This document shows positions 23,475 through 60,904 of a stretch of 64,000 bases of DNA, piece after piece; position 1 is the first letter of the stretch, and the number at the start of each line of letters is the position of its first letter. Below the pieces are notes generated by a model that was given only the letters and a program-made list of their open reading frames with translations, did no database searches and was not told where the DNA came from. Position numbers and translations under genes: made by a program. Source of the stretch: Thuidium tamariscinum (Eukaryota; Streptophyta; Bryopsida; Hypnales; Thuidiaceae); contig OX344749.2 in assembly GCA_947034885.2 (NCBI GenBank), forward strand, positions 45,909,682-45,973,681. The letters are read 5' to 3'.

Positions 23475-23689
23475 ATTCGCATTGACAGCAGCAGGTTTCC
23501 ATTCATCGAAGTCCTTTGCGTCATGGAACTGGTCTTCCTCACGGACATGAGCGCCCTCTCTTGCAAGCTCTTTGTCCCCTGAAGCCTATGCATCTGGGCG
23601 ATTATCGTTGCCTTCAACACGATTGTGTAGATTCCTCTATCACAAAGAAGTACGAATTTGTATACCCAGCCAGGACAGACTTTCATTTT

Positions 23690-30385: not shown

Positions 30386-30774
30386 TGTGGGCGCTTCATT
30401 CCCACCCTTGGAATTAAGCGATCACAACCAAGCTCTTGTTTACAAAACTACTCCTACGGGTGTCTAAGCGTCAAACCCACTGTGCCTTCTAAGCAATGGA
30501 TCTTTTGCTACCCTAATTATCCTCGGTGTGTACTTGTTTCGTTCCCTTGTCCTACTTCTAATTACTTCCTCACTTTATGTGTTTCGTTCTCTTGTCCTAC
30601 CTCTAGCTACTTTCTCACTTTATGTGTTTCGTTCTCTTGTCCTATTTCTAATCGCTTCCTTCTGCCCAATCTAGGAGGTTATTCCTCCTATTTTACGGTT
30701 TTACCCCCATGGGTTGCCTTTGGTTGACTCTACTCCTTGCTTGGCATTTTCTCTAGGTATCTATCCTTTTGTTG

Positions 30775-31115
30775 ATCTACTCTACGTCTTTGTCTTTGCT
30801 TTATTCTACTCTACGTATTTGTCTCGGTTTTAGTCTAATCTACATCTTCCTCTACTCTATGTATTTGTATTCTTCTACTCTATGTGTTTGTATTCGTCTA
30901 CTCCATGTACTCTTCTACTCTACGTATTCTTCTACCCTACATATTTGTTTTAATCTACTCTACGTATTTGTATTCTTCTACTCTACGTATTCTTCTACCC
31001 TATGTATTTGTTTTAATCTACTCTACGTAATTGTATTCCTTTGGTCTACTCTACATATTTGCTTTAATCTACTCTACGTAATTGTATTCCTTTAATACAC
31101 CCTACGTATTTCATT
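30775..31115 (+). repeat. Pyrimidine-rich tandem array in LTR B
   Basis: About ten degenerate repeats of 'tctactctacgtatttgt' with variants 'ttctactctatg' and 'ttttaatctactctacgta'. This array inflates small open frames in the region. It is absent from the aligned position of LTR A. Confidence 0.7.
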
Positions 31116-41154: not shown

Positions 41155-41158
41155 AAAT
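41155..41158. repeat. Candidate target-site duplication AAAT, left
   Basis: AAAT precedes the AAGGCC end of the left inverted repeat and also follows the right one (60,735-60,738). AT-rich flanks make a 4-bp match weak evidence. If the repeat is taken to start one base further in, a 2-bp TA duplication is the alternative. Confidence 0.4.
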
Positions 41159-41185
41159 AAGGCCTTATTCGTTAAAATGAGACAA
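41159..41185 (+). repeat. Left terminal inverted repeat (27 bp)
   Basis: Begins AAGGCCTTATTCGTTAAAAT and ends GAGACAA; a perfect reverse complement lies at 60,708-60,734. Inside it, TTAAAWTGAGAC-type repeats recur at 41,192-41,205 (inverted), 41,237-41,250 and 41,255-41,270, like subterminal transposase-binding repeats. Confidence 0.88.
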
Positions 41186-41734
41186 GTTCTAGTCTCATTT
41201 TAATGACTTTCTATTTTTAGGATGGAAAAACCTTCCATTAAATTGAGACTCCCGATTAAATTGAGACTTGAAAATGTTAAGAAGTATATTTTATTATTAT
41301 TGGATCATTATGAGTAGCAAAAAACTAGTACAAACATTTGGATTTCTAGTTTTAATTCTTTTTGAGCGATATGAAATTTTCAAAAAACTCATAAAGTGAG
41401 ATCTACTTTGAAATGGAACTCATACATCTTGAAGCACTAATCTTGAAGAAAATGATATCACACTTTGACATGGCAAAATTGTCCACTATTATAATATGCA
41501 AGACAATATTTATAAAAAAATAGAGAGATGCTTTAGTGAAAAGTTTATTTACTATTAATAGACATCAATATCTATTACATAGGTAAACTATTATAATTTA
41601 ACCGTGCCTATGTCCACTTCTAGATAATTTTATGCCTGCAAATACTACTTTCATTAACAACTTATTATAATATGAAAAGCTATCTTGCATTTGAACTACG
41701 GAAATAATATTCTAATACTACAACTAATACATAT

Positions 41735-44587
41735 TCATTCTTGTGCCACAGACTCGCCGTTTTCTTCTTCAATTGGAAAAGCCGCCACTGATGCTTTAAT
41801 GATGCCAATTTGCAAATTTGGAATCGATGCTTTTGGATTTTTAGTTGTCACTCGAAAACGTGGCCTCCAAGCCGTTAGGATACAGTCTGTACTTGACCAT
41901 GTTGGCCTTATCACGCTGTCTTCACGCCACACATTCCCTTGTTTAGTGTCCCATCCTTCATATGTCTCCATGTTGATGTGTCGATTCGAGGTAGGTGTCC
42001 AATATTGAATTTGGATCATATTCATATGCCCGGGATCCGGGCTTGGACCCGTAATGGCCTTCGCAAGCCAAAATGGCTTTAGATCACCATCTGCTGGACG
42101 CACTGCAATAAAAGAACCTTCGTGTACATCACGTGTAATACGAAATGAAGGACGCGGACGATCACGTCTACGACCAACAAAGGGCGCATCTTCTGCATCT
42201 TCTTCACGTAAAGTGCCATTTCGTTGCATTCGATCTGTCTCGTCTAGGGCAATCCTTGATGCCGGCCAAAATCCGTCAAGTAAAGTGTCCCGTACTTGAA
42301 GTGGTGCATCCAAAGCAATTCGAACGCCTTTCCAGTAATCTTCTAGGGAACCATTCTTCCGCCTAATCTCTCCTGTGTAATCGTCATTTGCCATTTTATT
42401 CCAATGTGCAACAAAACCATTCAATCCCTTCTTTACGTGTTCAAGATCCTTCATCTTTTCTGGAACAAGAGGTCAAGGATTCCCACTCGGCAATATAGGA
42501 AGCCCATCTTCAGTTTCAGACCACAACCGAATCCCCTTGCCATCCTCTGGCAACCACTTTGGATCATTACATAAATTTTTATACTCCATCAAAGGCCACC
42601 CATCTGAATTCATGAAAAACTTGAATTGTTGGGCTCTAGAATGTCCCCCTAAGAAATCTCCGCCTGTGCCTAGGTACCCCTGCACGAATGCCTTGAAGTC
42701 AGGAACTTCTTCAATAAAGTGAGGAATCACAGGGTGTGTTTCGCAATCCATAAAAGACTTTATGAGTCTTGGAAGTGTTGGATAGCTACTTGTCTTCAAT
42801 CTTGAGCTCCATCGACCAAAAAGAGCATCAATGTCTTCATGAGTGTGTCCCACAATGAGGAAGTTGATGTACACTTCACGAAAAATGCCTTTGTAGACAA
42901 GCATAGAGCAGAAAGCAAAAACATATCGGTTTTTGTTGTCCCCTGAAGCATTGTCTAATTGCAATATTAATACCGGTGGAAGAGGTTTTGCCGGAAGTGG
43001 GTCCTCTGGAGGAGGAAGGAGGGAGTCCAAGCAAGATTCTGCTCCATCTAAAAATGCCTTTGTTAATGTGGATTGATCCCTCTCAATAGAGAATAACCTC
43101 CGCGATGAATTCTTTGGCGCTCCTTCCAAATCTCGCAATAACCTTGCAATTGATCCAATGGTATGGTTTGAATCCGTTGGAAAAATACTTAATCCATAGT
43201 GTGCATATCGCACATCGCCATGACCATGAGCAATCATACCTGTAACAGCAACAGGCATTTTCATGAAAGATTCTGTCACTTTGGTCTTGTGAGAGAAGTG
43301 AGGAGAAGCTGTCTTTGAATGATCCATCTTATCATGAATAATGCACAACATCGTCTCGGGTTGTAGTGTTGAAGTTCGTCGATTGGAATAATAGTACTCT
43401 CTATGAGCCTCTTGTCCTTCATTATGGATCCTATAAAGATTGGTCCACTTCAATTTCGACTCAGGACCTACACAAGCTTTCCTTAATTGCTTGTAAGTAT
43501 CGCATACTCCACACCTAGCAAAGGTGTCTCCACAAGCTTTTGCAGCATATTCAGGGAAAGAAGCACGACGGATGTTACTTAAACCACTCGATGATATTGG
43601 TGGCAAATCCAACATTGCATTTGAAGTATTGATTTCCCCCAATTGCTCACTCCAACGAAATGAGGATGGCAGAACCATTGCGGTCACTTTCTCTCCGGAC
43701 TCAAGTGTCCTAGTCTTGTGGGGCATTTGATCAGCATCAGACTCAATAAGTGTTCGAAGTGTTGCAATAGCTTGAATAGTGTGCATGCGAGGCTTCTTCG
43801 ATCCCAAATTCCCATGAACCTCTGCCTGCTCCCCACTTTTGGCTTTAGTTTTGTACCTGTAGAAAGTGCACTTCGCAATCCCATGAATAATCCACCAAGC
43901 AGCAGGGCACACCTCTCTACCTTTTAAAGTTATCCACTCTTTGCCTTTATCATCTTTATGGATCTGCCTGTGAACCTCTAGAAGTGTCTTGTTACGAGCC
44001 TTGAAGTCATTTCCTCCATACAGCTCAATCCGTATTGCTTGAATTTGTGCACGAGGGAAAGGCTGCACACAATTCTTCTCACAACACGTCTTGGTAGAAA
44101 CTGCTGTAATTGACTCCATAGTCAAGAGAACTTCTTTCTTTGGAGGTACCTGCGAATCAATTCTTTCACGAGTTGATTCATAAGACCGAACCCCCTTTCG
44201 AGCTCTTCTGCTAGACGGGTTCATAGCAGTGTTGTAAATGTTTGTCTGGTCGTGATCGTACAGTGAAGCTCCATCGAAAAGAAACACTCTCCTAATGTGC
44301 CACGAGCGTAGAGACCACATGTTCCCTGAAGAATATAGCTGCTCGTTCAAAGACTCTGCAATCTGAATGGCAACTCGGTCATCACCAAGTGACTTCCCGT
44401 CATGGTCGACGACCAAATCCGGGTCAACGTTCTGACAGATTCCTCTTGCAATATCAACCCCATGATCATTCTGAAGAGTAACAGGTTGCGAGATCCATTT
44501 CGCACGACAAATTCCTTCGCATGATCGAACATCGTCTGGAAGAGTGGGAACAGGATTCGCGAAATCATCAGGCCCGTGAATATCCAT
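41735..44587 (-). pseudogene. DUF7869-like protein (putative transposase-related), one in-frame TGA
   Basis: ATG at 44,587 follows a TTTGCAG acceptor at about 44,589, so a leader intron is likely. The frame has 950 sense/stop positions to 41,735, with one TGA at codon 705 (42,473-42,475), after which the same frame continues PLVPEKMKDLEHVKKGL. Blocks match the DUF7869 family as I know it: a Cys cluster (CCEKNC); VCPAAWWIIHGIAKCTFYRY (HTH-like); CGVCDTYKQL; IIHDKMDHSKT (D419, D422); ILQLDNASGDNKNRYVFAF (D545); and INFLIVGHTHEDIDALFGR (E584, D585, D587). The three acidic positions have the spacing of an RNase H-like fold, so a DDE-type transposase role is plausible but inferred. The C-terminal part (VHEGSFIAVRPADGDLKPFW) is typical of the same proteins. 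The TGA could be CGA to TGA decay. Confidence 0.7.
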
Positions 44588-44618
44588 CCTGCAAATAATA
44601 AACAAGAATTAGTAGACA

Positions 44619-45263
44619 TATCATCGAGTCGACGATAGAAGAGGTATTCAGAAACTCTCCTTTCACTGATACTAAAGACAAGTTCAATGATTGTATATAC
44701 TACACTCTCAAAGCACACGAGAAGGATGAGATAATAGATATCATAGATACACATATATGAATTCAAGACAAGTGTTTACATTAAGAAATATAACGACAAC
44801 ATGAACAAAAATACATAATCCAATTAAAGTTATCTTCAAGAATACCATTACTTTTATCGAATAAACGAAATACATATTGTAATAAGCATTTCATTCTGAG
44901 ATCTAAGAGTGAATGAGACTAGTATCCTCGACTCGAGGATAATAGCATCCTCATTATCCGGTAAAATAAAACAGATGTCATCATATTTCTGTTAACATCA
45001 TACTTCTATCCTCGAGTCGACGATAACCAGTAATAGTAATGTATTACAAATTCTTTCACCTTATACTTTGAATTACAGACAATAAAGAAAACATGTAGAC
45101 CTACACTGTTTTCAGTAGTAAAACAGTGCATCATCGACTCGACGATGACAGAACTAGACCTTCGATATCCTACTGGATGTTGGATACCATCACTGAAATG
45201 ACATCTGAAATACAGCATAGACCTAGGCAAATACCAGACCAACTTATCCTCGACTCGACGATA
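44619..45263. repeat. Five 19-bp GANTC palindromes upstream of the DUF7869-like gene
   Basis: Sites at 44,619, 44,923, 45,007, 45,129 and 45,245 (each 19 bp) fit TATCNTCGASTCGANGATA. The copy at 44,923-44,941 (TATCCTCGACTCGAGGATA) is a perfect palindrome apart from its central base. They lie 32-676 bp before the ATG of the minus-strand gene, in its putative leader intron. The half-site sequence is TATCNTCGA. Possible roles are protein binding or methylation. Confidence 0.85.
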
Positions 45264-45950
45264 ATCGAAATACTCAAAATGTTCTATTGAACTGTTCATG
45301 TCTTCAGAGTCATGTCTTTTGAATTTCAGATCTCCTATTCATACTAGTTCTCCGTATTTTCCGGCGTCAATAACGGAAGACTCGAACTGTGAAGTGCGTA
45401 CATTTATCAACACAACGATTCTGCTTTCAGAAATTCCCACTCCAAGTTCCAGAGACTTACATGTATCATCTGAAAACGCGATCGAAATGTGCTCACAGAA
45501 GTTCTGAACAACAACACGAAGTATAAATCCTAACGTTACTTCCTCTTACGTACTATGCTAAGCTCTCAGAATACGCGCTTCAAACTGGATCACTCTACAC
45601 TCTGCGCAATATCTGAGAAGTGAACGCCCAAGTTCCTTACGCAGAAGAAGGCAGGAGGCGGTGCACATCAAATGATATGCAAAGAAGCGGTTAACATCGA
45701 AGGTCTGTGCGTGTCATCAAAAACCACAGTCTACTGAGGAGAGAAGCGGAGGCGTCGTGGCGGAACACAAAAAACTGTGAAACTGGTCGAGAAGGAAGAC
45801 ACACCTGCCGACCTGAATGGAGCAGGAAAATATGAGCGGGAAAGCCAACGATTCAAAAAGTCCTCCAAGAAAAGGGTTGCAATGCAACCTGTCGGATGCC
45901 ATTTCAAGAGATGCCTCTAGCAGCTTTTAGCCATAAAGTTGCGGCTCCCA
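45264..45950 (-). promoter_or_regulatory. Probable promoter/leader region of the DUF7869-like gene
   Basis: More GC-balanced than the spacer to its right (for example 45,590-45,900). It lies upstream of the intron that precedes the coding ATG at 44,587. I cannot place a transcription start or leader exon exactly. No palindrome is found here. Confidence 0.3.
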
Positions 45951-48900
45951 TAATTACTTGTTCTGAAAAAAATATTCCATCTACATAGGGACTATAAATG
46001 CAAAAGTACTGGATTCCTTGAACGGAATTTCTCGGACTTCCCAGATTAGCTTCTACTTGGCATACGTTCCTTGAGTCCCATGCCTACATTGTACATTAGT
46101 ACATTCAAGTTCGGGTTGAAGGGTCTTTTGGGTTTAGGGGGGATGAACCTTACGGTTTAGGGTTTAGGGTTTCAGGGTTTAGGGTTTAGGATTTAGGGTC
46201 CATCATGTAGGGGTGAATGTTTAGGATTAGAACATTGGTCAAAGGATTAGCGATCTACATCTACCATCTAGGGTTTAGAGTGTAGAATTGAGGATCTATA
46301 ACAGTTTCAAGTTCAAGTGGCTAAATCACATGTCCATTCAATCACAATTCAAAATGCATCGTGATTTTTCATTCATTTTATTCCTTAATGAAAGTATTGT
46401 TGCAATCGAAGACAAGACATACTGTAAATGTGACCATTTCATTACGCAAAGAAGGAGGTATTGCGTTCCATCAATGTGTCCATTAAATATTTGAATGTAG
46501 GCCTTCTAATGAAGAAAGTGTACTCTTCAGTTATGATAATATGATTTTGTTCAACTGCTTTTTACAATGAAGTGATAATGATCTAATAGAACTAATAACT
46601 AAATGATTTAGTCATTCTCTATTATTTAGTGGACAACTACTGCATTTTAAAAAAATGTGTATAGAAGTAACTGTAATTTCTTTTTTGAACTAATTGTCAA
46701 TTTCTTCATTCGCTTTGAGCTCAGAGAAGGATAACATTCATCTATAAGCTACAAGTTTAAATAGAATTTGTAGGTGAAGTTTGTAAATAATTGATAAGAA
46801 GTAATTCTTTTAAGTGAAGTTCCAAAATTAATAATTGATCAATTTAGGGCATTCCATTCTTTTGTCGAATAATCTACTATCACCAAAATCATAAAAAATG
46901 ATTCTTCTTGGAAGAATGAGGAAAAAAAAAGGTATGGAAAAAGTCCTTGAACTTCAAACAATTCCGATTTCATGAAAGTGCATATCATGTTTTATAAATA
47001 CATGACACTTTCATTTAAATTATTGTTCTCTTTAGGCCAACCATGTCCAAGGTCGAAAATGTAGTCACCATTATTTGTATTTAGAAACCTAGTACATAGA
47101 AGTTATATTTCTCTATTATAAAAGAAATTCATATTTCTTTGAATTTGCTTTGGCAAATATGAATAATGCTGAAGTACATGTATTTTTTTTTATGCTAAGT
47201 CGGAATTGTGCAATTCATAGGCAAGAATGTCAAATTCCTTTGAAGAAATGAATTTTCAATTCGATTTCAAGTTCCTCAACTTCTTCTGGGCTTCTACTAA
47301 CTTGGAGATTTACGATTTTGAAATGAAAATTGCTTATACAAACTTCCAATGGCATTGAAACTTCTCCCAATTTTATTTGGCTACTTATAAGCGTGAACTT
47401 AATGGCATTTGACATTCTTCCAAAAATTTCATCTAAAACTACCCTTTTTATCTATACATGTGATTGAAATGTACGGCTCCAGTGTAATATGAAATTGAAA
47501 TTCCTTATTGGAAATGAATGTTTGATAGCATTGCAACTTCTCCCTACAGATTCAGCCTTCTGCAGATGGTAATAGCATATTAACATGCATTGGTGGTTTT
47601 TATATTTATATGAAGAAATAGTACGGTGTGCATTTTTTTCCCCCTCAAGTGCTTTTTTGGCAATACAATGTAAATGAAAATGGTAATCTCATTTCTCAGA
47701 GAAGCCATTTCTTTGTTTACTATAGTTGAAGTGTTTTCATGTCTAAGGGCAGTGTTAGTCTCAAGAAAATGAGGAAGCACTTTCTTGTAAACATGGTTTT
47801 TATATTAAATTAAATTCCTCTATAAGTCTCACTTGTTTTTAAGAGAAATCATAATTTTGTTTGTAGAACTTTAGGTTTTCAATGAAAACAATATCAAATA
47901 CTTTTGCTTTTATCATTACAACTTCTTGTAAGTACTTTCATTCTTCTAATGCCTTTAGTGAAAGACAAAAAAATTTATTACTATTTCAGTAAAGAGAATG
48001 AAATTTACTTCACTTCGTTCCTATTCAATCATCATTAATATCATTTGAATATATTATTTGTCATTGTGTACCCATATTATTTGAAGTCAAAATTAATAAA
48101 GAGTTCAGCCAATATTATGGAGTGAAACATTCAAGTAATTATAATTTCTCAAAATAATCAGTATTTATTGGCAATTTCTAACAATCATTACGTGTGAACC
48201 ATTCAGATGTTTTGTAGTAGTTTATCATAGAGCCACATTCAGTGACAGAATTCAGTTGAGGGTAGCTTCTTCTTGATGTAAATTAAAAAAAAAAAAGACG
48301 TGCAATTACATTGACATAGTCAAAATTACTGCAAACTAAATGGTGTACAATGCAAAATTCACTAGGATCATTTCTTTCAAAGAAATTTGACTTTCATATT
48401 CAAGAACTTCTGAATGAGGAATTCAATGAACCCCTACAGTTTGATGACTATATACGAAAAGCAGAGACAAATTGTCTTTTTCGAAGGAAGTACCAAATTA
48501 GAATAGAAAACGTGTTTTGGACATATGGAAGCATATGATCTTGTAGTATGCACTCTCCATAGCAGGTGCTACAACAGTGCAAGCATTTCCCCTATGGTCT
48601 GATAGATTTGAGTGTAGCAATATACTAATATCATTGTTTTGGTCCATCAGGAATTATGGCAGTTCCATTTTCCAAACTTACTCCTCTGTAAAAACGGTAT
48701 AAAACGGTGTTCTTCTTACGATTTTTTTCATAGACAAGTTATGCACAGACTTCAAAGTTTTCACAACAGTTTGGATTATACAATTATTTTGTAGAGAAAA
48801 ATTATTAGTACAACGTACTACTTAATTATAGGAGATCATAAACCCTTAAGCGCATCTGCATCCTTGAAGTGGATGCACCTTGGTGAACCTCTATTTTAAC

Positions 48901-50880
48901 TTTAAATATAATCATTTATAGAATTTCACTTTAAATAAGAAAATGAAGGCTCAAGAGTTTTATTTCAATTTCAACTTCAAATATTAAAAAAGTTTCTGGA
49001 ATTGCAAGTTCTATATGTCATAATCCAAAAACCACAATTTCTTGTGTTTTTCATTCATATTTTTTTTCTTTTCTGATGAATTTATAACTTATATTACCTA
49101 ATAAAGTTTTCCATTGTTATCTTCATTAATGATAAAAAATTAAGATTGTTCTAATATATATTGTAGTTCATATTATTATTTCTTTTCTTTAACTTTAAAA
49201 AACAACAATAACTTGTAGTTTTCATCAAGAAACTTTGATCGAACTTAATGACACGAAGTTGAATTTCGTTTTAGTAAAAAACATCAAACTTCTACATCTC
49301 TATTCGATAAAGTATTAAATGTGATTGACGTAAGGCACATATTACTTGAAGGTCTTTGTTATGGTTGTTTGGTGATTTAAAATAAAAAAATCACCACTTC
49401 TATGAAAGTAAAATCCCTGGAAGGCAAAAAGAATCCACAGAACTTGCAACGCTGTACCCAAAAACCACATTTAGTTTCCGTGAGCAAATTGAATTTCATG
49501 CATGTACCTAGAAATTGAAATAACCAGAACTGACCTAAGAAAATGGTTGGTCATCCAATTCCTATTGAGTTGTTCTAATTTAAAAATGCCCTGAAGTAAT
49601 TCGCGTTGCCATTCACTTGGAAAACTACTTCCTTGTATGTGACTTGGGTTTTTAGGTCCTTAAGTGCAAAACATTCTTACTTTTGCTTTCACATATTGGA
49701 TTATTATTTACATGTCAAGGGAACTTGGAATTTGCACTTTGCCAAATCTTTTTTTCTAAGGTATTCACTTCATTTAATTTTTTCTAAAGGGTTTAAGTTT
49801 CTACTTTCTATTGGAGCTTTTCAAAGGACCTACAAGAATGGTTTAATACTCATCTTTTCAGTATATTACTTACAGTCATTGAGAATATTACTTTCTAAAG
49901 TACAAGTATATTACTTGTTCTTCATACAATCTTAATGCGTACATTGCATTTTCAATACTAGAATATTTGATACAATTTATCTTTGAATTTACATTGAGTA
50001 CTTCACTTAGCATATTTCCGAAGCTCGATCCACTCAGGTTTCTTTTGTATGCATTCCATGAAGATGTTCGAATGTTAATGATCAACCCTTCAGTGCCAAA
50101 GGCGTACTTCCTCTGTATTAGAATTTGCTCATAATTCAACAAAATGCCAACATTTTTATAACTTCTATCAAATTTTTTGGAATTGTAACAGTAAAACTTC
50201 AAACTCCACATGTTTTAGGATTCATGGGAAAACAAAACAAAACAATATCACTCACATAGTGCAACATTATAATGTTTGACTCTGAGGGTCTTAGAACTGC
50301 CAAAAAATTTCAATCTTGTCTTCACAAGTCAAATCTAAAACAATGCAGACCAAAAACATGAGGTTTAAGGATCTAAAATATATAACCCCAATTAATTCAT
50401 ACCTTCTTAAAAACTACTTTCTAATTCCAAGAATAGAGTCTTGAATGTGCCTTCTGATGGAAGATCTGCAACATTCGACGCTCTTTTCCAATAGGTTTCT
50501 CAAATACGGGAAGTCCAGCTTGCAATGGGTACCCTTGCATGAAATTGTGTACTGAGAAATCACTATTAGTCATTTTCGGGATTGGATTTTTGATCCTAGA
50601 ACTAGGCTTCCTGAAGTACTTTTGAAAAATACGAACTACTAAAAGTAGAAATTTCATTAGGTATTTTTAAACTTAAAAGTTTTGCAAATACCAAATTTTG
50701 ATAGCTTTGGCATTCACAGGTCTGAAGTTTGGTTGTTCACTCATTTCATCTGCAATATATTTTTTCTTTTGATAATTTACTGGGATTTTTTTTACAACCT
50801 ATAATTCTCACATTATCTCAAAGACAAATACCCACAACATTCATCGTTACATAAATGTAAAGAAGTACCTTAAATTTTGA
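45951..50880. other. Non-coding AT-rich centre of the element
   Basis: About 4.9 kb between the two divergent large genes. Open frames are at most 109 codons and unrecognised. There are no palindromes of the 19-bp family in it, unlike both flanks. It contains a telomere-like block at 46,155-46,199. It might be a later nested insertion or old filler DNA; I found no ends for a nested element. Confidence 0.45.
46155..46199 (+). repeat. Interstitial telomere-like repeat (TTTAGGG-type)
   Basis: Runs of GGTTTAGGGTTTAGGGTTT, then CAGGGTTTAGGGTTTAGG with a few substitutions: about six units. Plant telomeric units also appear singly near 51,650-51,730 ('ggtttaggttttaggtttta'). Too short to be a telomere. 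Confidence 0.75.
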
Positions 50881-50884
50881 CATT

Positions 50885-52099
50885 GAATGTATCCAAAATA
50901 CCTTTCATGCCAAAAAAGTAGGTTTGGTCCGAACCTGATGGCTTGGTTTGGACCGAGCCGTGGGGCTTGTAATCCCAACCCTAAACCCGCATCCGCAGCT
51001 GAGGGCCGGAGGAGCCCGAACCTGGATTGGCGGCTCGGGGTGGCATCGGCTCGTCTTCTCCCTCCTGCTGAGGCGTGACTTCATTCCTTTCGCGCGCTCT
51101 TCCTGCTCCTCGGATTCTGTGCGTGTGTTTCAGAGGTTGATTTAAGGCGTTGGGAGTGTAGGGGTTCTTTCTTTTTTCAGCATTGCTTTCTTCTCGTGTA
51201 GCGTGGCAGCGTTGGAACAGTTTTGTGTTGAATGCGCATTGATTGTGGGAGCCGTGCAAATTCCGAGGTCGTTGTTGTGGAAAAATCTGAGATCGGTGTT
51301 TAGGCTGTGAGGGGTTCTTGAGTCGTTGATGCTTGGACTTCCTTTAGCAACGGAGCGTGTGAGCAACGGAGCATGTGAGCAACGGAGCGTGTGAGGGTCA
51401 GTAATTGTCCGAGGTCATTGCAATTTTTTTCCTTGGAGGAGTTCGGGCTTTCTGTGTATGCGGTGGTTTGGCGATTCGGTTGGAGAGTGCGCTTTCTTCA
51501 ACAGTGTTTGCGGTTGACGGAGCGGCGTGAGAAGATTGAAGCCGGAGGTGCGTGGGCGCTGCAGCAGCTAGCGTCGGGGCAAAATTCAGGTACCTTGCTT
51601 TCCATTTTGTGCTTTGTATTGAAGCACAATTCTTGTCATTCTACCTTGGTTTAGGTTTTAGGTTTTAGGTTTTTATCTGTTTGGAATCAACTAGTGTTAG
51701 CATGAAGTTGGGGTTTAGGGTTTTAGGGGTTCACCAGAAGTGATCACCAATTTTGTTGTTTGTTTACGGAAACATCTGTTTCTGTGCTTTGTATCCTGCT
51801 TCAGCTTGCACATGCTGTTGGGCTCTAGGAATGTTTTTTCAATTTTTCTTATTTTGAGCTTGTACTATTCACTTCCTGTGAACCATTTGCACTTGTCATT
51901 GCATTAGGGTTGAGGGATGCAAGGGTAATCTGTCTGTCTAGTTCGTCCATCTAGCTCATCGTGCATGGGTTTTACAATTTGTGTTACATGTTACAAGTGC
52001 TATAGTTGATGTATTGCTTTTTGTTTTGCAGGATTGATTTTAGGGTTTGCCACATTTCACAGTGGTAGTGCACTGCAGACAATACTGTGAGCAAATACA
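50885..52099 (+). promoter_or_regulatory. Promoter and 5' leader exons of the ParB/methyltransferase-like gene
   Basis: The sequence becomes clearly GC- and CpG-richer at 50,920-51,590. A leader exon can end at 51,589 (TTCAG/GTACCT). A second small exon spans 52,032-52,099 (acceptor TTTTGCAG; donor ACA/GTAAGT). The next acceptor at 53,085-53,086 (GTGAACAG) leads to the ATG at 53,095. The leader exons carry no long frame, so they look like 5' UTR. Exact transcription start unknown. Confidence 0.45.
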
Positions 52100-52315
52100 G
52101 TAAGTGTTTTTCTGAACATTTCACTTCCTCAACTCTCAATTGAATGTCCTTCACCATCTTCAATTGTTAGCTAGGGGTTCAAGTTAGCGGTTAGGGCTGT
52201 TGCCCTTCTGATTTCGACGATAAATTAGGGTTCGTGAACTCCACCCCCGTGAAAAAACGGATTCTATATAACGGGAGCCAACCTGGGATTGAGGGCATGT
52301 AACTGAAAGAACTAT

Positions 52316-52965
52316 TATCCCCGACTCAAGGATACTGACCGCACAGAATTGTTTTGACGGTATCCTCGACTCGAGGATAAATGACCTTGCAGACCAAACT
52401 TCTCACCTAAAGAAGTTCTAAACAATAATCTTATTCGTTTGAAAACGTCAGTATTTCAAGTACATCTATTGTAAAGAATTGCATTATTATCCCCGAGTCG
52501 ACGATAATATAACATGGATGAGTCGCAACAGATTTAAGCGACACTCCAAAATAAGACAGTAGTCCTGGATCCACGTCCAGTTGTGTACTCTAGAACATAG
52601 TGCATTGCAGAGGTTGATGTAACCATCTTACATGTGAACGAGTAAAGAATCTGGGACTTATCGTCGAGTCGACGATGAATATGATAGGAAGACTGATATA
52701 CAATATCCAGTTCAATGTTCTAGAGAGATTTTTGTGTCATAAATAATAGATCTCCTATTCATGCTTCAAATGTAGCATGAAGCGTCGTAGGTCTTTACAT
52801 GATAAAACATAAATAATATTCAGTTCGTTTACGGTCCCGTCATTTAAAAGACTTTAGATTACAACCAATTAAAATACGCATACAATATTCTGAGGTTTGT
52901 CTCATCGTCTCCGTAAACATGTACACGAATTCTTCCTCACAGAATTTATCATCGACTCGACGATA
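52316..52965. repeat. Five 19-bp GANTC palindromes in the leader intron of the large plus-strand gene
   Basis: Sites at 52,316, 52,361, 52,488, 52,659 and 52,947. The copy at 52,361-52,379 is identical to the perfect copy at 44,923. They lie 130-779 bp before the ATG at 53,095 and mirror the five sites before the divergent DUF7869-like gene. Confidence 0.85.
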
Positions 52966-53094
52966 AGTATGTATACATGTACTGTGAAATTCAATATTGT
53001 CATAGAATCAGCACCCTACCCTCTCAAAGTAGAGAACTCTGTATCAGTTATGTGTAATGTAACTATCCTATTCTTTGTGTGAACAGGATTCCGG

Positions 53095-56000
53095 ATGGAG
53101 GTATCCGATGGATATGACTACTCCGTCACGAGACATCACCTTGACCCGTTTGCCAACCCACTAGTGGATGAGCCGTTCATCACTGACATGGAGGAAACAT
53201 ACGGGTCGCTTTGGCAGTTCAAAGCTCATATTGCTGCATGGAGTTTTGGAGTGAACCGGTTCAAAAACTATGTGTACCTTAGATACCATGTTCAGGGTAC
53301 CAGAAACTGCATGGTTTGGAATTTGAAAGAGAAGGTGACCTTGATCAAAGAGCATCAACAAAACTATGTTGTCATCGTTCTTCGTGAAGTAGACGAAGTT
53401 GGGAAGTCTAGAGACCACTCTCACTCCATTGTCATGAATGTTCTTTCCGATCACGGGAAGTTTGATTTGGAGAATCTGATGGCTTTCTTGGAGGGATCAA
53501 AGATGGAGTCTCTGAATGAACAGTTTGTGAGATCAGGGTATGTCCCATGGAAAGTTGGTACAGCAAAATCTAATGCTACAAGATTGGGGCTTATATTTCA
53601 AACGCTAGATCGATACGCATTAGAGAACGTGGAAGTCCGTCCGACTGTTGGTGGAAGTGCTTCGAGAGAACGTAGAGTGGAGTCAGAAACGCGTTCAACG
53701 GAGCCTCCTGTCCGAAACGTATCTATAGGGACACGGGTGGTTCAAGGACAGACGAGATCAGAGCCAAAGAAGCGAGGCAACCCCCCTCCTCAGGAGGGGC
53801 AAATGTCCAAAAAACGGAAGAAAAGTATTACAGGGACAGCGGCTGCAGGCAGCTTCGGGTCAGCATTGACGACAGTAACAACCGCGCCTTCATCGTCTAC
53901 AGCGGACGTGCTGGACCATGAAAAAATTGCTGAGATTCAGAAGTCATTCTGGGCTGAGCACAAGAGGTGTTTTCTGTTTGACGAGGAACCCATGAAGGTA
54001 GACATAAAGCAGTGTATCATGGCATCACCTGAGTTTGTCATTCGTACATTGCAACGGGATATAGTGGACTCCGTTAAGAAAGAGCTGATTCAGCTAATTG
54101 ATGTGAAGCAGCGGCAAAAAGTTTGTCTTACACCTGTTGACAAAGATAGTCAATTGCTCAAACGGAAGCCCGTGAAGTGGGAGGAAATTAAAAACGGTAA
54201 ATTTATGATCATCAACGGGCAGCACAGCGTGACAGCGTCACAGGAACTCCAGAAGGGGGGATGTGGGGAGGCGAGGAGAGTGGAACTTCAGACCTGGGAT
54301 GCGTATATCATTTGGACCGTTGACCATAACAAGCTCAGGAGTATCTCGAAGTTCTACAACATCACTAATCACTTAGATCACGCTCAACCCAATTGGGGTA
54401 ATCAAATGATCAGTTGTCGGAAAATTTGGGAGACTTACGACCGCCCGACCGACGATGGCGCTGATTCTGTGAAGAGAAAAAATAATTCAGTATACGACCT
54501 ACCCAATTATAAGGTAATGGTGTGCATCTCTTTATCCCCGATTCGACGATAAAACGTTAGGTTTGGCTCCTGTGTTACGTGTTGTAATAGTTCATGATGC
54601 TTTCATCATAATGTCTGAGACAATTAGAAATGTTTACTAATTACTTCCAGTGTTCTTATCGTCGACTCGGTGATAACTTTGAAACAATGCATCCATGAAT
54701 TCTCACAGGTTTAATAATTTTCTTTGCAGAAATTTGCGGATGCAGTGATCGAGAGGTTCCAGAACATCAATCCCGAGAGGGATGGTTCTTCAATAAGCGG
54801 TACTTCAGATCTGAAGCCTAAGATCCAGATCATCACTTTGCGTGATGAATTATGGACAGACTGGGAGACTTTTTTGACAAAGTACCCCATCGGTGAAATG
54901 ATGGACCCTTATGCATTGAAGTTGTACAAAGATGTGAAAGGCTTCAAAATGAAGAACGTCGCACTCAAGCGAGAGTTCTTCAAGCATTTTGGTCATTTCA
55001 TAGACAATGACTACGGAGTCAACACGCAACATCTTGTTGGTGCAACACCAGGACGAAAGGCTGTGTATCCGAAAGTTTCAGTGAAAGGGAACACATACCT
55101 GGTTCCAGACAACATGACCCACCGGGATTGGGTGGATCGGAGGAAGCGGAAGAAAATTGTGATCCAGGAGTTGATGGCAGTTAATCCTGCCCTTCATCTC
55201 TTCGACAGTAACCTGGATGTTGTATACGAGACATGGAAATCCTGGAAGGAGAGGCACAAATTTTCATCAGCCACATGGGATTTTCTCACTACGTACCCGC
55301 CTGCCGACTACTTCAAGAAGCGACTCCGTAACGACGCCTGGTTGAAGAGAGCAAAGGACTTGGGAAAACAATTTCCACAAGTTCTTTATATGTTCAACAG
55401 GTTCATGAAGCTGAAGTACCAGCTGCCTGAACCTGTCGAAGGAGTGGCAATTCGAGCATTCGATGTGAATGCAAGAGCGTTTGTGAAGGACTCCACGTAT
55501 CGGTACGTCAGCCGAGAGGTTAATCTCGTTGTTCTGGATGTGCGAGAGATGCCGAGAGCCAGTGCTACGAAAAGCGGTTCTCCCATCAACCCGTTTCTCA
55601 ATTTTCTTCACTCCAAACTTGAGCCACGAATGATAGAGGCGAACGTCTGGCTTTTCATTTTAAGTGATCGGGAGGACGCAAAGGCTGCAAATACCTTTGC
55701 AACGAATAAGATGGTCACGTACGACCGGATTATGTCGAGGTACATTCCTAGCAGAGCAGAGTTGCTAGACAATGTAAGCAACCGAAACACTGCTCCAGAG
55801 GTACCACTCCTCTTCCTCTTCAGAAAAGGAAACAAGTTCGCAACTAGTGCACGTGAGCTGTTGAAGACAAAGTACCAAACGTCTGTCACAAATGTGTACT
55901 ACTGGGACTGGGGGCGTAACACGGAGGCTAAGTGGAGAATCGAACCAACAGAACTTCGGATGGAGTTTTATCTAGAGATTCTTCAAACCTTCGCAAAGCC

Positions 56001-57955
56001 CGATGACAACGTTCTTGGCATTTACACTGGAGCAAAGTTTATGCTGGCCTCAAAGGTAATTCGCGACACCCGAAATCATCCTCGACTCGGTGATACCATG
56101 CACCTAACTGTAATACTTGTGTAAATTGTTTATTTTTGTCTGCATGGAATGTCTTTTATCATCGACTCGATGATGTATGTTGCACTGGTACTTACCTTAC
56201 GACTTGGTGGTTGTCCAGATGTTTGGGGCGTATTTTTATGGGTTCGTCGCAAAAGGAGAGGTAGAACAATATCTTAAAATTGCGGACTTGGGCAAGAAGT
56301 TGGATAGAAACGACTTCATGTTCTCAAATTCCCCATACACAATGGAGTACGAGAAGCCTACTCATCCTGAATCGGAAGAGGACCGGTTGAACTCGCCTGC
56401 GTCTCCACCCATGACTCTTGTTTCACCCGTGCATGTCAATCCACTTCCCCCAACGAGAGCGGGAACGTCTGAACCTCATGTGGCCTCTGACTCCGTCGTT
56501 CTCGGTATTGACGAGTATGGAACAAACACGTTCCAAGTTTATACGTGGATGACTGTTCCAGCGGTGATTGCAGGAGCCGCTGACTCTGACGTGCAAGAAG
56601 CTGGCGATACACGGGTGCAAATCGTGGACCTTGATGCGTCTCCAAAAACACCATCTAACACTGTCACTGCTTTGAATTCATCATTTGAGATAGATGAAGG
56701 GATGGAAACTGATTCCGAGTTTGAGAGACAGAGAGCTGAGCATGGGGGACAGATTGACAATGAAGATGAAGATGAGTTGGGTTTTGGGGGGGAAGAGGAC
56801 CTCTTCATGAGGGAGAATGTCGCGGACGATGGCTTGCGTTTAGGGGGAGAGGGAGACGCCTCCATGAGGGACAATGCGTCGGATGAGGACGTTGTCGTAG
56901 AACATGCGTCGCCAGTGATTCCCAGAGATGCTGTTGACAAGGATGGGAAGCCGTTGTTTTACAACTTCGGTAGTGACGACGATCCACTGGACCATCCTCA
57001 CGAGTCAGATCATGATGACGAAGACCATGACGGGGCTCCTACGGTGAAAGAGTTGAAACCTCTACTGACCCCTGGAGGCAAAGTCATCAAAGTGGAGAAG
57101 GATCACTGGAAGGAAGAGGAAGCGAAGCGCGTGAGAAGAATAGCTCGAAATGCAGAGAGAGAAGCAAAAGACCAAGCACTCGCCGCTGCAAATGCTAAAA
57201 TCATCGAGGTGGAGCGGGAGTCGCAGGTGAGGATGTCTTCACTTTCCATCGAAGTGCAGGAATTGAAACAGTTGATCCAAACTCAACTGAGTCAGCAAAT
57301 GCCCATTGCGCCCTCGCAATTACCGTTGCCACCACCGGCAGCATCTTTGCAACCTAGTCCTGCTGTAGTTCAGCATCTCGTCTCTGGGCTTCCTCGAGTC
57401 GAGGATGATGACCACGTGACCTCTTTGGCGAACGACGAGGTGGTCGCGTGCACCCCTGCTTCTCAACTGAGCTTGAGTGTAGCATCTCCAGAAGTGGGTG
57501 CCTTCGAGGTTTCCATCCTTGAGTCTCGGCGGACGCCAGCAGAAGACACTAAGGAGTATCATCGAGTCGACGATACTCTTGAAAAGACTTCTGGAAACCA
57601 ATCCGGTTCAGAGAACACCCCCCAATGTCAAGTGTCAGAGCAGGTGGATGTTCCCGTGGAATTGACTTCTTCTATGTATGAGGAGGAAAGAGTGGACTAT
57701 GGCGACAATGAGGCCCATGACAACGTTCCTGAGGAAGACGAATTGCGAGCTCTTACTGCGGCAGTTGAATCAGAGCCTGTACCCCAACCAACTGATTCAG
57801 TGCAGGTACAGTCTTCTAACCTTTACAATATCAATTAACTGTCAACATTTTAAAGTCGTATTGTCCTCTAATAACCCCTATTTAGTATTGGGAAGGGAGT
57901 TGCAAATCTCATTCCTATTATTGCTGTCTTACAGGAGCGGGTCGTCACTCCTTGA
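53095..57955 (+). CDS. ~1,450-aa protein with DGQHR/ParB-like motif and degenerate N6/N4-methyltransferase-like region
   Basis: Coding segments 53,095-54,513, 54,730-56,055, 56,219-57,805 and 57,935-57,955 join at phase 0 through good GT-AG sites, giving 473+442+529+6 residues. Residues 1-190 are unrecognised. A basic, low-complexity linker follows (SKKRKKS). FMIINGQHSVTASQEL around 370-385 resembles the DGQHR/ParB-type NGQHR motif, with a following ARRVELQ...KFYNITNH region. At 863-945, YYWDWGR, EPTELRMEFYLEILQTFAKP and DDNVLGIYTG, then the next exon's FGAYFYGFVAKGEVEQYLKI, resemble the end of N6/N4 DNA methylases (KP.EL...FS.PGD.VLDPF.G...A...R..G.E). The Asp-Pro-Pro-Tyr and VLDPF residues are not kept, so activity is uncertain. 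The tail is acidic with a coiled-coil-like Glu/Arg/Lys stretch (~1,200-1,270). The last short exon is the least certain part: skipping it would join the FCP1-like frame in phase. An AATAAA lies at 58,079. Confidence 0.7.
54533..54675. repeat. Pair of GANTC palindromes near both ends of one intron
   Basis: The intron is 54,514-54,729. Palindromes at 54,533-54,551 (GATTC centre) and 54,657-54,675 begin 19 nt after the donor and end 54 nt before the acceptor, separated by 105 nt. The two could pair with each other in RNA or DNA. Confidence 0.8.
56077..56175. repeat. Second intron with a pair of GANTC palindromes near both ends
   Basis: The intron is 56,056-56,218. Palindromes at 56,077-56,095 and 56,157-56,175 start 21 nt after the donor and end 43 nt before the acceptor. 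The arrangement is the same as in the previous intron. Confidence 0.8.
57389..57575. repeat. Two GANTC palindromes inside a coding exon
   Basis: Sites 57,389-57,407 (core TCCTCGAGTCGAGGATG) and 57,557-57,575 (TATCATCGAGTCGACGATA) are translated as LPRVEDD and YHRVDDT. Both are in the same reading phase, and the frame stays open across them. Confidence 0.8.
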
Positions 57956-58078
57956 TTGCCTGGCGCTGACGGAGAACCCGTCTGCGGCGGACAAGTTGTA
58001 CTATAGTATAGAGTAGAACTCTCGAATTGTATAGTTTTGGCGGCTGAAGAAATTTTGAAATGTATCTAAAGCCATGTG

Positions 58079-58084
58079 AATAAA
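58079..58084 (+). terminator. Polyadenylation signal AATAAA
   Basis: AATAAA lies 124 bp after the stop at 57,953-57,955, in an AT-rich stretch. Suitable for the end of the large gene's mRNA. Confidence 0.45.
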
Positions 58085-58347
58085 AATATATACTTCACTA
58101 TATTCAAAGTGTGCGTTGCCTAATTGCATTCTTTTGTCCATGTTTTTTGGTTCAGCTTGAGAAAAATGTAAGCTTGCATCGCCCACTATCCAAAAAAGCA
58201 CTTCCTACTGGGAGGGCGCAGTCGAGTAGAGAATTACAATGCGTGGCTTCGCACTCTACCTTTACCAGTTCCGCATGTAACCAGGTAACTCCAAAGTCTT
58301 TGTTGTCCTGCTTTAATCAGGTAGGATCGGAGGGGCGAAGAGAGGTC

Positions 58348-59148
58348 ATGCGGAGGATAGACCGTCCTATGATGCCTCTGCCAAGGAGGAAATGGCTGAA
58401 CATTGTCTTCGACCTGAACGGGGTGTTGTGCCACACCACATTGAAGTCCTACGGCGACAAATTCAAACCGTACAGACTCGAAGACAATGTTCTGAGCCAT
58501 CGGAACCCCACAATCATCGGCCAGAAGGCGGTGTTCGCGCGACAGAACGTCGCCGAATTTCTCCGACACGTTTCGGAGATAGCCAATAAAATCGTAGTGT
58601 GGTCGTCCATGGCCAAGCGGAACGCGGAACCGATCGCGGAATTCTTGTTCCGGGGGTGCAGACCGCCCTACAATGTCTTAGGCCAGGAGCAATGCACGAA
58701 AATAGAAATCGCTCCTGGCAAATTCTTTCGTTGGGGGAAGTCGCCCCTGTTCATGAAATTCCTCGAGGGCGATCTCATGGGCACTGACAATCAGGGCGCG
58801 TCGTTCTTTGCGCACGACACCATTCTTATTGATGACTCTCCCGAAAAGAATGTCCTCAATGTGAGTGGCAACACGCTCCTTCTGGAGTCGTGGACCCACG
58901 ATATGCGTAGGGACGACGTACTTATGGGGCAGCTCCTGCCGTGGATCCGCCGACTCCATTTGGAGTGCGACCCGGAGGGGCAGTTGCTCGAATACGTCGA
59001 CGACAATCGGATCGGCGTCAATCCGCTTGGCCGCGACGACGCCCACTATAAGGAAATAGTGGGAGCGATGAGGGAGTCCGCCGAGGTCATGGGGGCTCGA
59101 TTTGATAGCTTCAACACGGGCCTCATTGCACCGAGGCAGCGTCGTTAG
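58348..59148 (+). CDS. FCP1-like (NLI-interacting-factor type) HAD protein with altered catalytic motif
   Basis: From ATG 58,348 it encodes 266 aa. WLNIVFDLNGVLCHTT (D22-L-N24-G-V) is HAD motif I, where FCP1/SCP phosphatases have DLDxT; the second Asp is Asn here. KIVVWSSMAKRNAEPIAEFL fits motif II, and ILIDDSPEKNVLN (D162, D163) fits motif III. The spacing matches an FCP1 homology domain. The second Asp is the usual acid/base residue, so activity may be weak or lost, though plant relatives with DVNGxL or DLNGxL are, as far as I recall, common. The frame is open upstream to 58,111. An acceptor at 58,154-58,155 (GGTTCAG) would join the CAG end of the preceding gene at 57,805 in phase and give a fusion of about 1,774 aa. 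Function is probably protein dephosphorylation or binding; the substrate is unknown. Confidence 0.78.
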   Translation: MRRIDRPMMPLPRRKWLNIVFDLNGVLCHTTLKSYGDKFKPYRLEDNVLSHRNPTIIGQKAVFARQNVAEFLRHVSEIANKIVVWSSMAKRNAEPIAEFLFRGCRPPYNVLGQEQCTKIEIAPGKFFRWGKSPLFMKFLEGDLMGTDNQGASFFAHDTILIDDSPEKNVLNVSGNTLLLESWTHDMRRDDVLMGQLLPWIRRLHLECDPEGQLLEYVDDNRIGVNPLGRDDAHYKEIVGAMRESAEVMGARFDSFNTGLIAPRQRR

Positions 59149-59242
59149 TATTGGACTTTTTTGTAGTGGCGCGCATTCAGGGAGCACAGGCATATCGTAT
59201 AGTATCGTATCTTATTTTTTCATGTATGACATATTTTTTGTA

Positions 59243-59248
59243 AATAAA
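59243..59248 (+). terminator. Polyadenylation signal AATAAA
   Basis: AATAAA lies about 95 bp after the stop of the FCP1-like frame, in an AT-rich tail. Confidence 0.5.
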
Positions 59249-59529
59249 ATATATTCAGCTGTATGTATATCACATTACTTCGTTGTTTTGAAAGTTGTAT
59301 TCGATAAATGGATGCAAAATTTTACATGTGTCCATGTACTCATGGACAAAAATGCATGAAGGCCTTTTGAAATATGTAATCATTTCAGGTTGGAGCCTTT
59401 CGCCTCTTCGAAACACCAAAAAAACAGAAGCTTACAAGGAGCCTCCTCTCCTGATCAGAGAAGTCGCCGTCCACGAGATCAGAATCGGATGGAGGGAGTT
59501 GCGAAACGGCTCCCGTGTCTAAGCCCTAT

Positions 59530-60324
59530 ATGTTGCGTTCTGCTGCGGACGCGGAGTCCGCCGCCATAGACTTTAGCAAGGGAAATATCAATGATGGTGT
59601 TGTTGATAGTCCACCGAGTCGCACAGCGGGGAAGACTCTCGTCTGCTCGCCTTCGCCATTGAAACGGGCATCCTCGAGTCGAGGCCGGTCTTGGTCTCCG
59701 ACATCGCGAACAGATGCTGCAACAGTTCAAAAACTTGAACTGACGGTTGACAATGGTGGGCGACATCCTCGACTCGACGTTGAGGTTCCTCTCACTTCTC
59801 TGGTGCCCACCAGTCTCACCATTGGAGTAACGTCGACGGGTGGACCAACGGAGGGGATCAAGGTTCAACCTACCTTGTCTGATGGAGCTCTCCGCTTACC
59901 TCCAGTCAACAATATTTCAACTCGCCCTTCACGTTCCTCAAGGTCTGGAGGACCTAAACGTTTGCCATCGGCGGACAGTCTTTTTCGTCAACGAATTATT
60001 AGAGATCATCGGCGCTCTCTTGACGCCAAGTATACCGGAAATAGCGTTGCATGCATAGATAGTGTGAAATTGTTGGTGTCGGGGCCGCCACAACGAGAAT
60101 CTCAATCTCTTTCGACTTCGGGGACTTTCCAAAACACGTGCGAGTCAAAACGGAAAGCTAGTGATTGTCAAAGCGTGAGTGAGGGTGGTTCTCCGTACAA
60201 TGAAAGTGGGTTACAGCATCATTCTCGACGCAAGGATATCCTAAGAGGTCTTGCGAAGCTAAAAGCCATAAAGGCAGGGAAGGTAGTTTATGAAACCAAG
60301 AGTAATGTTTACGGAAGCCACTGA
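59530..60324 (+). CDS. Small basic Ser/Arg-rich protein, unknown function
   Basis: ATG at 59,530 (MLRSAADAESAAIDFSKGN) opens 264 codons to TGA 60,322-60,324. The frame is open up to 59,455, so a start in an upstream exon is possible. Composition is rich in Ser, Arg, Pro and Thr (SSSRGRSWSPTSR, STRPSRSSRSGGPKR) with a basic C-terminus (RRKDILRGLAKLKAIKAGK). No domain recognised. It contains two of the 19-bp palindromes. An AATAAA at 60,522 could end it. It is the gene closest to the right terminal repeat. Confidence 0.5.
   Translation: MLRSAADAESAAIDFSKGNINDGVVDSPPSRTAGKTLVCSPSPLKRASSSRGRSWSPTSRTDAATVQKLELTVDNGGRHPRLDVEVPLTSLVPTSLTIGVTSTGGPTEGIKVQPTLSDGALRLPPVNNISTRPSRSSRSGGPKRLPSADSLFRQRIIRDHRRSLDAKYTGNSVACIDSVKLLVSGPPQRESQSLSTSGTFQNTCESKRKASDCQSVSEGGSPYNESGLQHHSRRKDILRGLAKLKAIKAGKVVYETKSNVYGSH
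59669..59782. repeat. Two partial GANTC palindromes in the small basic protein frame
   Basis: Sites 59,669-59,687 (CATCCTCGAGTCGAGG, right arm degenerate) and 59,764-59,782 (CATCCTCGACTCGACG, right arm degenerate). Translated as ASSSRGR and HPRLDVE. The second is in the same reading phase as the two sites in the preceding gene. Confidence 0.65.
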
Positions 60325-60521
60325 AATTTTAGTAGTCCTATACTTACTATAAATAGATAAATTAAAATACGTAAAATTACCTAGACTAAGTACTTCATGT
60401 TAATTTTTCTGAGTACCCTACAGTGGACATAAACAACAGCGAAGAAGCTGAGGGTCTATGACTGTACATTGAAGGCCTCGTAAATGTATAAATATCTCCT
60501 TCGGCATTTTCATTGATTCAA

Positions 60522-60527
60522 AATAAA
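60522..60527 (+). terminator. Polyadenylation signal AATAAA
   Basis: AATAAATAAA cluster about 200 bp after the stop at 60,324 and about 180 bp before the right terminal repeat. Confidence 0.4.
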
Positions 60528-60707
60528 TAAAGAATGATCACCTTCTATACTATGCTTTGCTTCTCACTTGATTCAAGTCATTTGGAGGAACAGTTTGAAA
60601 ACTTTGAATCATCGTTGAAAGCCTTGTTGTATTTATCCTTGCATTCAACAACTATTTACAATGATTGAGAGTTTTAAACCAATTTTCAAAGTCTCATTAA
60701 TGCCATT

Positions 60708-60734
60708 TTGTCTCATTTTAACGAATAAGGCCTT
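60708..60734 (-). repeat. Right terminal inverted repeat (27 bp)
   Basis: Reverse complement of the left repeat, without mismatch. A subterminal copy of the same family, AGTCTCATTAATG, lies at about 60,689-60,702. AAAT follows at 60,735-60,738. Confidence 0.88.
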
Positions 60735-60904
60735 AAATTCTTATGAAAATGGTTGGCCAAAAGTGCTCAAGTACCATTGTAGCTACAAATGTCCAATGCT
60801 GCTTATGAACAAGGCCATGGCTGCTTAGACTTCAATTCTGAGTTCCTTACATAAGGACTGTCACTGCCGAAAGAAGAAAGTGCTGTATATCGTTGCTTAT
60901 TTGT

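Follow-up and report, generated by a model that had tools for sequence, protein, structure and literature searches.

The window analyzed here, a stretch of 64,000 nucleotides from the moss Thuidium tamariscinum (assembly GCA_947034885.2, contig OX344749.2, positions 45,909,682 to 45,973,681 of the forward strand), carries at positions 41159 to 60734 an element that is one copy of a multicopy, autonomous-type DNA transposon of the moss genome. The element has 27-bp terminal inverted repeats, a 4-bp target duplication, four genes, and 19 to 26 dispersed palindromes per copy. Positions 41158 to 41185 and 60708 to 60735 form an exact inverted match of 28 bp (100% complementary), the only one longer than 18 bp among the three exact inverted matches of at least 18 bp in the window. 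Since AAAT stands on both sides as the target duplication (41155 to 41158 and, directly after the right end, 60735 to 60738), the terminal repeat is 27 bp long (left, 41159 to 41185, forward strand; right, 60708 to 60734, reverse strand), and the coordinates of a first-pass annotation of this DNA, which had proposed perfect 27-bp inverted repeats bounding about 19.6 kb, are exact. The subterminal repeats that it had placed inside both ends were likewise found, as TGAGAC-type copies at four left positions (A(T)TGAGAC, 41177 to 41267, starting at 41177, 41192, 41242, and 41260) and two right positions (GTCTCAT, 60691 to 60716, at 60691 and 60710).

The DUF7869 gene is directed leftward and the ParB-fold, FCP1-like, and basic genes rightward, with an AT-rich spacer of about 6 kb between them. 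The DUF7869 protein, the likely transposase, is encoded at 42473 to 44587 on the reverse strand, where it is cut early by a TGA, and its C-terminal part lies in frame past this stop (42473 to 42475) at 41735 to 42472. The domain proposed for it was confirmed by Pfam (PF25273; E = 2.4e-44; 151.7 bits against a curated cutoff of 26). In the ParB-fold gene, on the forward strand, exon 1 (53095 to 54513; 473 amino acids) encodes an N-terminal beta-rich domain followed by a ParB/Srx-fold domain, exon 2 (54730 to 56055; 442 amino acids) is methyltransferase-like by eye only, and exon 3 (56219 to 57805; 529 amino acids) is acidic and of low complexity. The splice sites were read by eye (GT..AG for intron 1, 54514 to 54729; intron 2, 56056 to 56218). 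The 3' end is uncertain: the gene may read through to 57838 or have a fourth, short exon near 57935. Downstream, both on the forward strand, are the FCP1/NIF-like HAD protein (58348 to 59148), whose domain Pfam also recovered as proposed (PF03031; E = 2.1e-12; 47.5 bits against a cutoff of 21.8), and the open frame of the basic protein (59455 to 60324).

Copies of the element in the moss genome

The 13-bp tip of the ends occurs exactly 223 times in the 363-Mb genome (111 forward and 112 reverse; reversed control, 1 and 0). Pairs were drawn from the first 100 of these places and included at least 17 plus-minus pairs 17 to 25 kb apart besides the window's own. Ten pairs were read, all 17.5 to 19.6 kb long, and together with the window's copy they make up the set of 11 full-length copies to which the counts below refer. 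The 27-bp ends were present in all 11 (the right end with one changed base in two), and the target duplication measured 4 bp in 10 copies and 5 bp in one; the ten 4-bp duplications represented nine different sequences without evident consensus. All gene parts were found in constant order in every copy, with coverages of 95 to 100% for DUF7869, 98 to 100% for exons 1 and 2, 69 to 100% for exon 3, 84 to 100% for the FCP1-like protein, and 88 to 100% for the basic protein, which was 46 to 97% identical in the 10 other copies and had a ratio of nonsynonymous to synonymous substitution rates of 0.25 to 0.42 between lineages. Stop codons lay within at least one gene stretch in most copies. An empty site was provided by copy E, which has inserted into a 172-bp tandem repeat: once one TTCT is taken out and the flanks of the copy are put together, they align gap-free to the adjacent intact repeat unit, agreeing at 166 of 169 positions.

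Genome-wide, scoring covered 95 of 455 candidate matches to exon 2 and 63 of 855 to DUF7869, so that both counts are lower bounds on copy number. Exon 2 lay within 30 kb of 51 of the 63 DUF7869 matches, in divergent orientation in 49, against random placements that averaged 3.5 and reached no more than 10. Among eight 3-kb tip loci we found two 254-bp miniature inverted-repeat transposable elements (MITEs) whose ends are those of the element save for a few mismatches and which are flanked by 4-bp duplications (ATAA in one and ATTT in the other); the two look like members of one family and hence are not independent.

The large eukaryotic transposon of the first-pass annotation is thus upheld by the ends that many copies share, by the same genes in constant order in all 11 copies, by target duplications, and by one empty site, and the search with ends and proteins that it had suggested recovered further loci in number; the term "composite" is not supported, the 11 copies each being a single unit. 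That the window merely holds two unrelated MITEs facing each other, as the existence of MITEs with such ends might suggest, is refuted by the common content between the ends and by the one target duplication that spans the whole in 11 copies. Ends bounding unrelated sequence were seen in none of the 11 copies, with most of the 223 tips unread and short MITEs existing.

Inverted repeats common to many copies, a duplication of fixed length, and an empty site place the family in Class II (cut-and-paste). CACTA/EnSpm elements have CACTA ends and a 3-bp duplication, and this class was rejected on the ends (AAGGCC) and the 4-bp duplication; KDZ/Zisupton was rejected on duplication length (4 bp versus 8 bp), as was VANDAL/MULE, whose target duplication is about 9 bp. 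Polinton/Maverick elements encode a protein-primed polymerase and a retroviral-type integrase, and neither had a Pfam match among seven frames of the element, in a scan not dedicated to them. In our view the family is of the cut-and-paste kind, has an unusual transposase, and bears an accessory system of the ParB type. The open-literature search returned no description of it, Repbase and non-open papers lying outside its scope, so that a catalogue entry with a different name may exist for it; nor does it appear in the available portions of a review of giant transposons and of a paper on TET/JBP transposons (PMC12730594).

Several further observations concern the copies. By blastn (E = 1e-5) the spacer (45259 to 51658) aligns to copy J alone (99%) and not to the other nine copies, unlike the genes. 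It contains plant telomere-like TTTAGGG tracts at 46100 to 46220, and similar tracts lie near the corresponding place in 11 of 11 copies. Of the scored copies, contig C11 holds 42 of 95 for exon 2 and 22 of 63 for DUF7869, with matches up to 16.5 Mb, and may possibly be a sex chromosome or another nonrecombining region. A repeat at 30400 to 31100 of the window has a relative elsewhere, into which copy B is inserted.

A palindrome family private to the element

The consensus of the palindromes, 19 bp long, is made up of the half-site TATCxTCGA, present twice in inverted orientation with a single base, usually C or G, between the two. Nineteen sites agree with it at 14 or more positions, and all 19 are inside the element, with none elsewhere in the window, so that the private palindrome family of the first-pass annotation is borne out; in 40 dinucleotide-shuffled versions of the element the number of sites averaged 0.475 and never exceeded 2. 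Two clusters lie upstream of the divergent genes, one before the DUF7869 gene (44619 to 45263; sites at 44619, 44923, 45007, 45129, and 45245) and one before the ParB-fold gene (52316 to 52965; 52316, 52361, 52488, 52659, and 52947). The remaining sites are in intron 1 (54533 and 54657), intron 2 (56077 and 56157), exon 3 (57389 and 57557), and the basic gene (59669, 59764, and 60220). In the 11 copies, no palindrome lies closer than 496 bp to either end. Each of the two MITEs keeps two palindromes matching at 16 to 18 of 19 positions (0 of 1,000 shuffles), which suggests that the sites may help an element persist or move without genes.

The variable half-site letter x divides the lineages. 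It was T in 0 of 76, 0 of 110, and 1 of 202 half-sites of lineages W, B, and F, respectively, versus 93 of 114 in the lineage of copies D, E, and L; as these three are close copies, the half-site change represents one evolutionary event at about 19 sites per copy and not three. Exact sites in the whole genome numbered 710 for the V type and 179 for the T type (controls, 0 and 0). On contig C1, for which both lists are complete, 50 V-type and 8 T-type sites form 13 clusters, of which 9 are pure V, 1 is pure T, and 3 are mixed. At the place of intron 1, a translated palindrome was recognized in 10 of 30 homolog tails of at least 12 amino acids, and in 14 when one difference was allowed; the other 34 of the 64 ParB-fold homologs have no tail of that length.

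One 4.2-kb contig (CADCWO010000074.1), assigned to the metagenome-assembled genome of an uncultured cyanobacterium (Synechococcales), bears an intron-containing ParB-fold gene that is 38% identical, together with five palindromes, four upstream of the gene and one in intron 1. This contig is probably moss contamination.

Candidate roles of the DUF7869 and ParB-fold proteins

The DUF7869 protein is probably the transposase, acting on the terminal and TGAGAC subterminal repeats. In all 11 copies, the four left A(T)TGAGAC repeats stand at the same offsets, give or take 1 base, and these fixed offsets, with the ends, fit binding by a transposase. The protein has 185 homologs, of which 120 are listed, and the longest among the matches listed are one continuous protein of about 945 amino acids; H425, KMDH at 427 to 430, DN at 552 and 553, NKN at 558 to 560, and D594 were invariant in 30 rows. 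The window's codon 42473 to 42475 is TGA and reads CCA or CGA in the other 10 copies, so that the window copy's transposase is probably truncated after the Pfam domain. The TGA could have arisen from CGA if a methylated CpG had decayed. A second copy, an open frame of 711 amino acids at C11:2346537, may share this stop.

The ParB-fold gene had been described as encoding a ParB/methyltransferase-like protein. The ParB half of this description holds by predicted fold, in a form that Pfam does not see: the AlphaFold2 model of the exon-1 protein (64 homologs) has the ParB/Srx fold, with structural matches to ParB, KorB included, and PHROG gave a weak ParB match (E = 0.075). The methyltransferase half is unconfirmed. 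ParB proteins read palindromes as dimers, which makes the ParB-fold protein a natural reader of the palindromes, and its occurrence together with private palindromes suggests that the element recognizes and marks its own DNA. The explanation that we favor overall, as somewhat probable, is a DUF7869 transposase combined with self-marking by the ParB-fold protein via the palindromes. In the mechanism that we propose, plausible though we would stop short of calling it probable, a ParB-fold dimer would bind the palindrome TATCNTCGASTCGANGATA, two TATCxTCGA half-sites one helical turn apart, and would then spread along the element's DNA, marking it as self. Such marking would regulate the element's promoters and prevent silencing, or ready the element for mobilization. 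The palindromes would be a second recognition system, separate from the ends and sited where regulation happens, and the lineages may drift apart by half-site change, as the x = T lineage suggests. Only tentatively do we extend this to a full ParB-type self-recognition, in which the protein would form a clamp on parS-like palindromes that shields the transposon from silencing, with lineages isolated by the changed half-site.

Several results weigh against this interpretation. A Pfam scan of 31 ParB-fold members did not return the ParB family, hhalign profile comparisons gave nothing significant against either ParB or ParB-methyltransferase proteins of bacteria, and Pfam found no DNA-binding domain after the ParB fold. 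The motif GQHS was present in 30 of 31 ParB-fold rows (the remaining row is truncated) at the position of GERR in the seven ParB proteins read of 33 loci, in a retrieval whose pattern favored GERR, and this replacement leaves binding of cytidine triphosphate (CTP) by the ParB-fold protein unproven. The half-site change falls on one branch of any four-lineage tree and so does not identify the reading protein. The two x letters of a site agree somewhat more than under independence in B and F, the separation of V-type and T-type clusters on C1 is weak (741 of 20,000 shuffles were as extreme), and the palindrome is absent from the intron-1 place in 16 of the 30 homolog tails. With regard to the transposase, the DUF7869 structure model is poor (predicted local distance difference test score, 63), and a known-fold match to the DDE region was sought and not found, in a model too poor to reveal an RNase H fold.

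The palindromes may instead be read by another protein, either of the element (the DUF7869 transposase or the basic protein) or of the host (a transcription factor), with the ParB-fold protein serving, for example, in nucleotide-dependent assembly or target choice; we regard this as possible rather than probable. The missing DNA-binding module would agree with it, as would the retention of all four genes in 11 of 11 copies and the two MITEs, in which the ends and two palindromes are kept, one of them 43 bp from the end, as expected if the sites serve transposition. However, the 11 full copies have no palindrome within 496 bp of their ends, the window copy's palindromes occupy introns, exons, and regions upstream of genes, and the ends are marked by a different repeat; a host factor is made unlikely by the lineage-wide half-site change. 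An endogenous virus or virus-like element, to which the size of about 20 kb, the several genes, the ParB fold, and the NIF phosphatase domain might point, is very improbable. Capsid, packaging, and polymerase domains were absent from the Pfam scan of the seven frames (five of which match nothing; no dedicated search was made), introns are present by splice-site reading, viral contigs gave no relative, element end, or palindrome, and the ends are of the cut-and-paste type with 4-bp duplications.

Improbable as well is a working DNA modification system, in which the ParB domain would be joined to a functional DNA methyltransferase of the N4/N6 type, with the palindromes as its methylation targets. 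Bacterial ParB-N6/N4 methyltransferase fusions exist and have the same layout, with the ParB domain first and a methyltransferase-like region second (12 examples), the junction of exons 2 and 3 resembles motif I of beta-class methyltransferases, and NSPY occurs in exon 3 of nine of the nine copies whose exon-3 start was read. Of ten weak tblastn records from phages, four are annotated methylases (E = 0.5 and 4); of the other six, five come from Dickeya phages and carry a different gene, and one has no annotation. Yet DPPY or SPPY is present in 11 of the 12 bacterial fusions, whereas [DNS]PP[YFW] is absent from exon 2 of 11 of 11 moss copies and from the exon-3 start of nine. No Pfam, NCBIfam, or PHROG match was obtained, a genome-wide search for PF01555 was empty, and the methyltransferase profile comparison was not significant (E = 0.29, versus 0.38 to 0.42 for reversed controls). 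The "modification-type protein" of the first-pass annotation is therefore not supported.

We infer that the ParB-fold protein is the palindrome binder, spreads, and counters silencing; the last role is modeled on VANC, the closest functional model in a plant, and on VirB. VANDAL elements are MULEs, which use a different transposase and make a longer target duplication, and VANC is not known to have a ParB fold. In Arabidopsis, VANC is an element-encoded protein that removes silencing, and the private motifs lie in noncoding DNA and introns and vary by subfamily (PMC5735166). The moss element likewise combines a transposon-borne accessory protein with a short private motif across its own noncoding DNA and introns, and its motif variants (V-type and T-type) recall the C-type and T-type of VANDAL subfamilies (PMC5735166); in contrast, the VANDAL motif YAGTATTAY is nonpalindromic (PMC5735166), and antisilencing by the moss element is a role that it would have by analogy. 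VirB of Shigella is a ParB-family protein that acts as an antisilencer (PMC10770331), and VirB and KorB of RK2 (PMC11790492), the latter among the structural matches of the moss protein, control expression from dedicated sites that may be distant from promoters. Both differ in being bacterial and in having a DNA-binding domain and a CTP switch, whereas the moss protein belongs to a plant transposon and has GQHS where ParB proteins have GERR. Fungal transposons with TET/JBP dioxygenases (KDZ, Plavaka, and others) likewise encode an accessory protein that is believed to oppose silencing, with other transposases, 8-bp (Zisupton) or 2- to 3-bp (Plavaka) duplications, and an enzyme rather than a ParB fold; the accessible part of that paper mentions no palindrome array (PMC12730594). 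If the palindromes are sites of the ParB-fold protein, plants would possess a second, independently built system of sequence-specific marking beside VANC, and, to our knowledge, the first natural ParB-site system in a eukaryotic nucleus would be at hand. The many-copy family would in any case bring together a likely transposase domain without assigned function and an apparent self-recognition module on a bacterial-type fold.

The seven named DUF7869 matches, from Ceratodon purpureus and Physcomitrium patens, share the Pfam domain, are 42 to 56% identical to the window's protein, and are named only as hypothetical, predicted, or DUF7869 proteins; no description of a 20-kb element around them was found in the open literature. 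The FCP1-like protein (38 homologs; matched in 11 of 11 copies) has DLNG in nine copies and DFNG and DLNS in the other two at the place of the usual FCP1 phosphatase motif, DxDx(T/V), and therefore may not be a phosphatase. Database matches to DUF7869 (among the 120 listed) and the ParB-fold protein (64) fall on contigs of equal size (460842, 46150, 446153, and 406742), as do matches to the ParB-fold and FCP1-like proteins (9838, 10519, 276186, 5311, 547624, and 8588); judged by size, such contigs carrying different element genes would be identical. Outside the element, an open frame at 22833 to 23585 of the window resembles what we take to be a fragment of an EnSpm/CACTA-type transposase.

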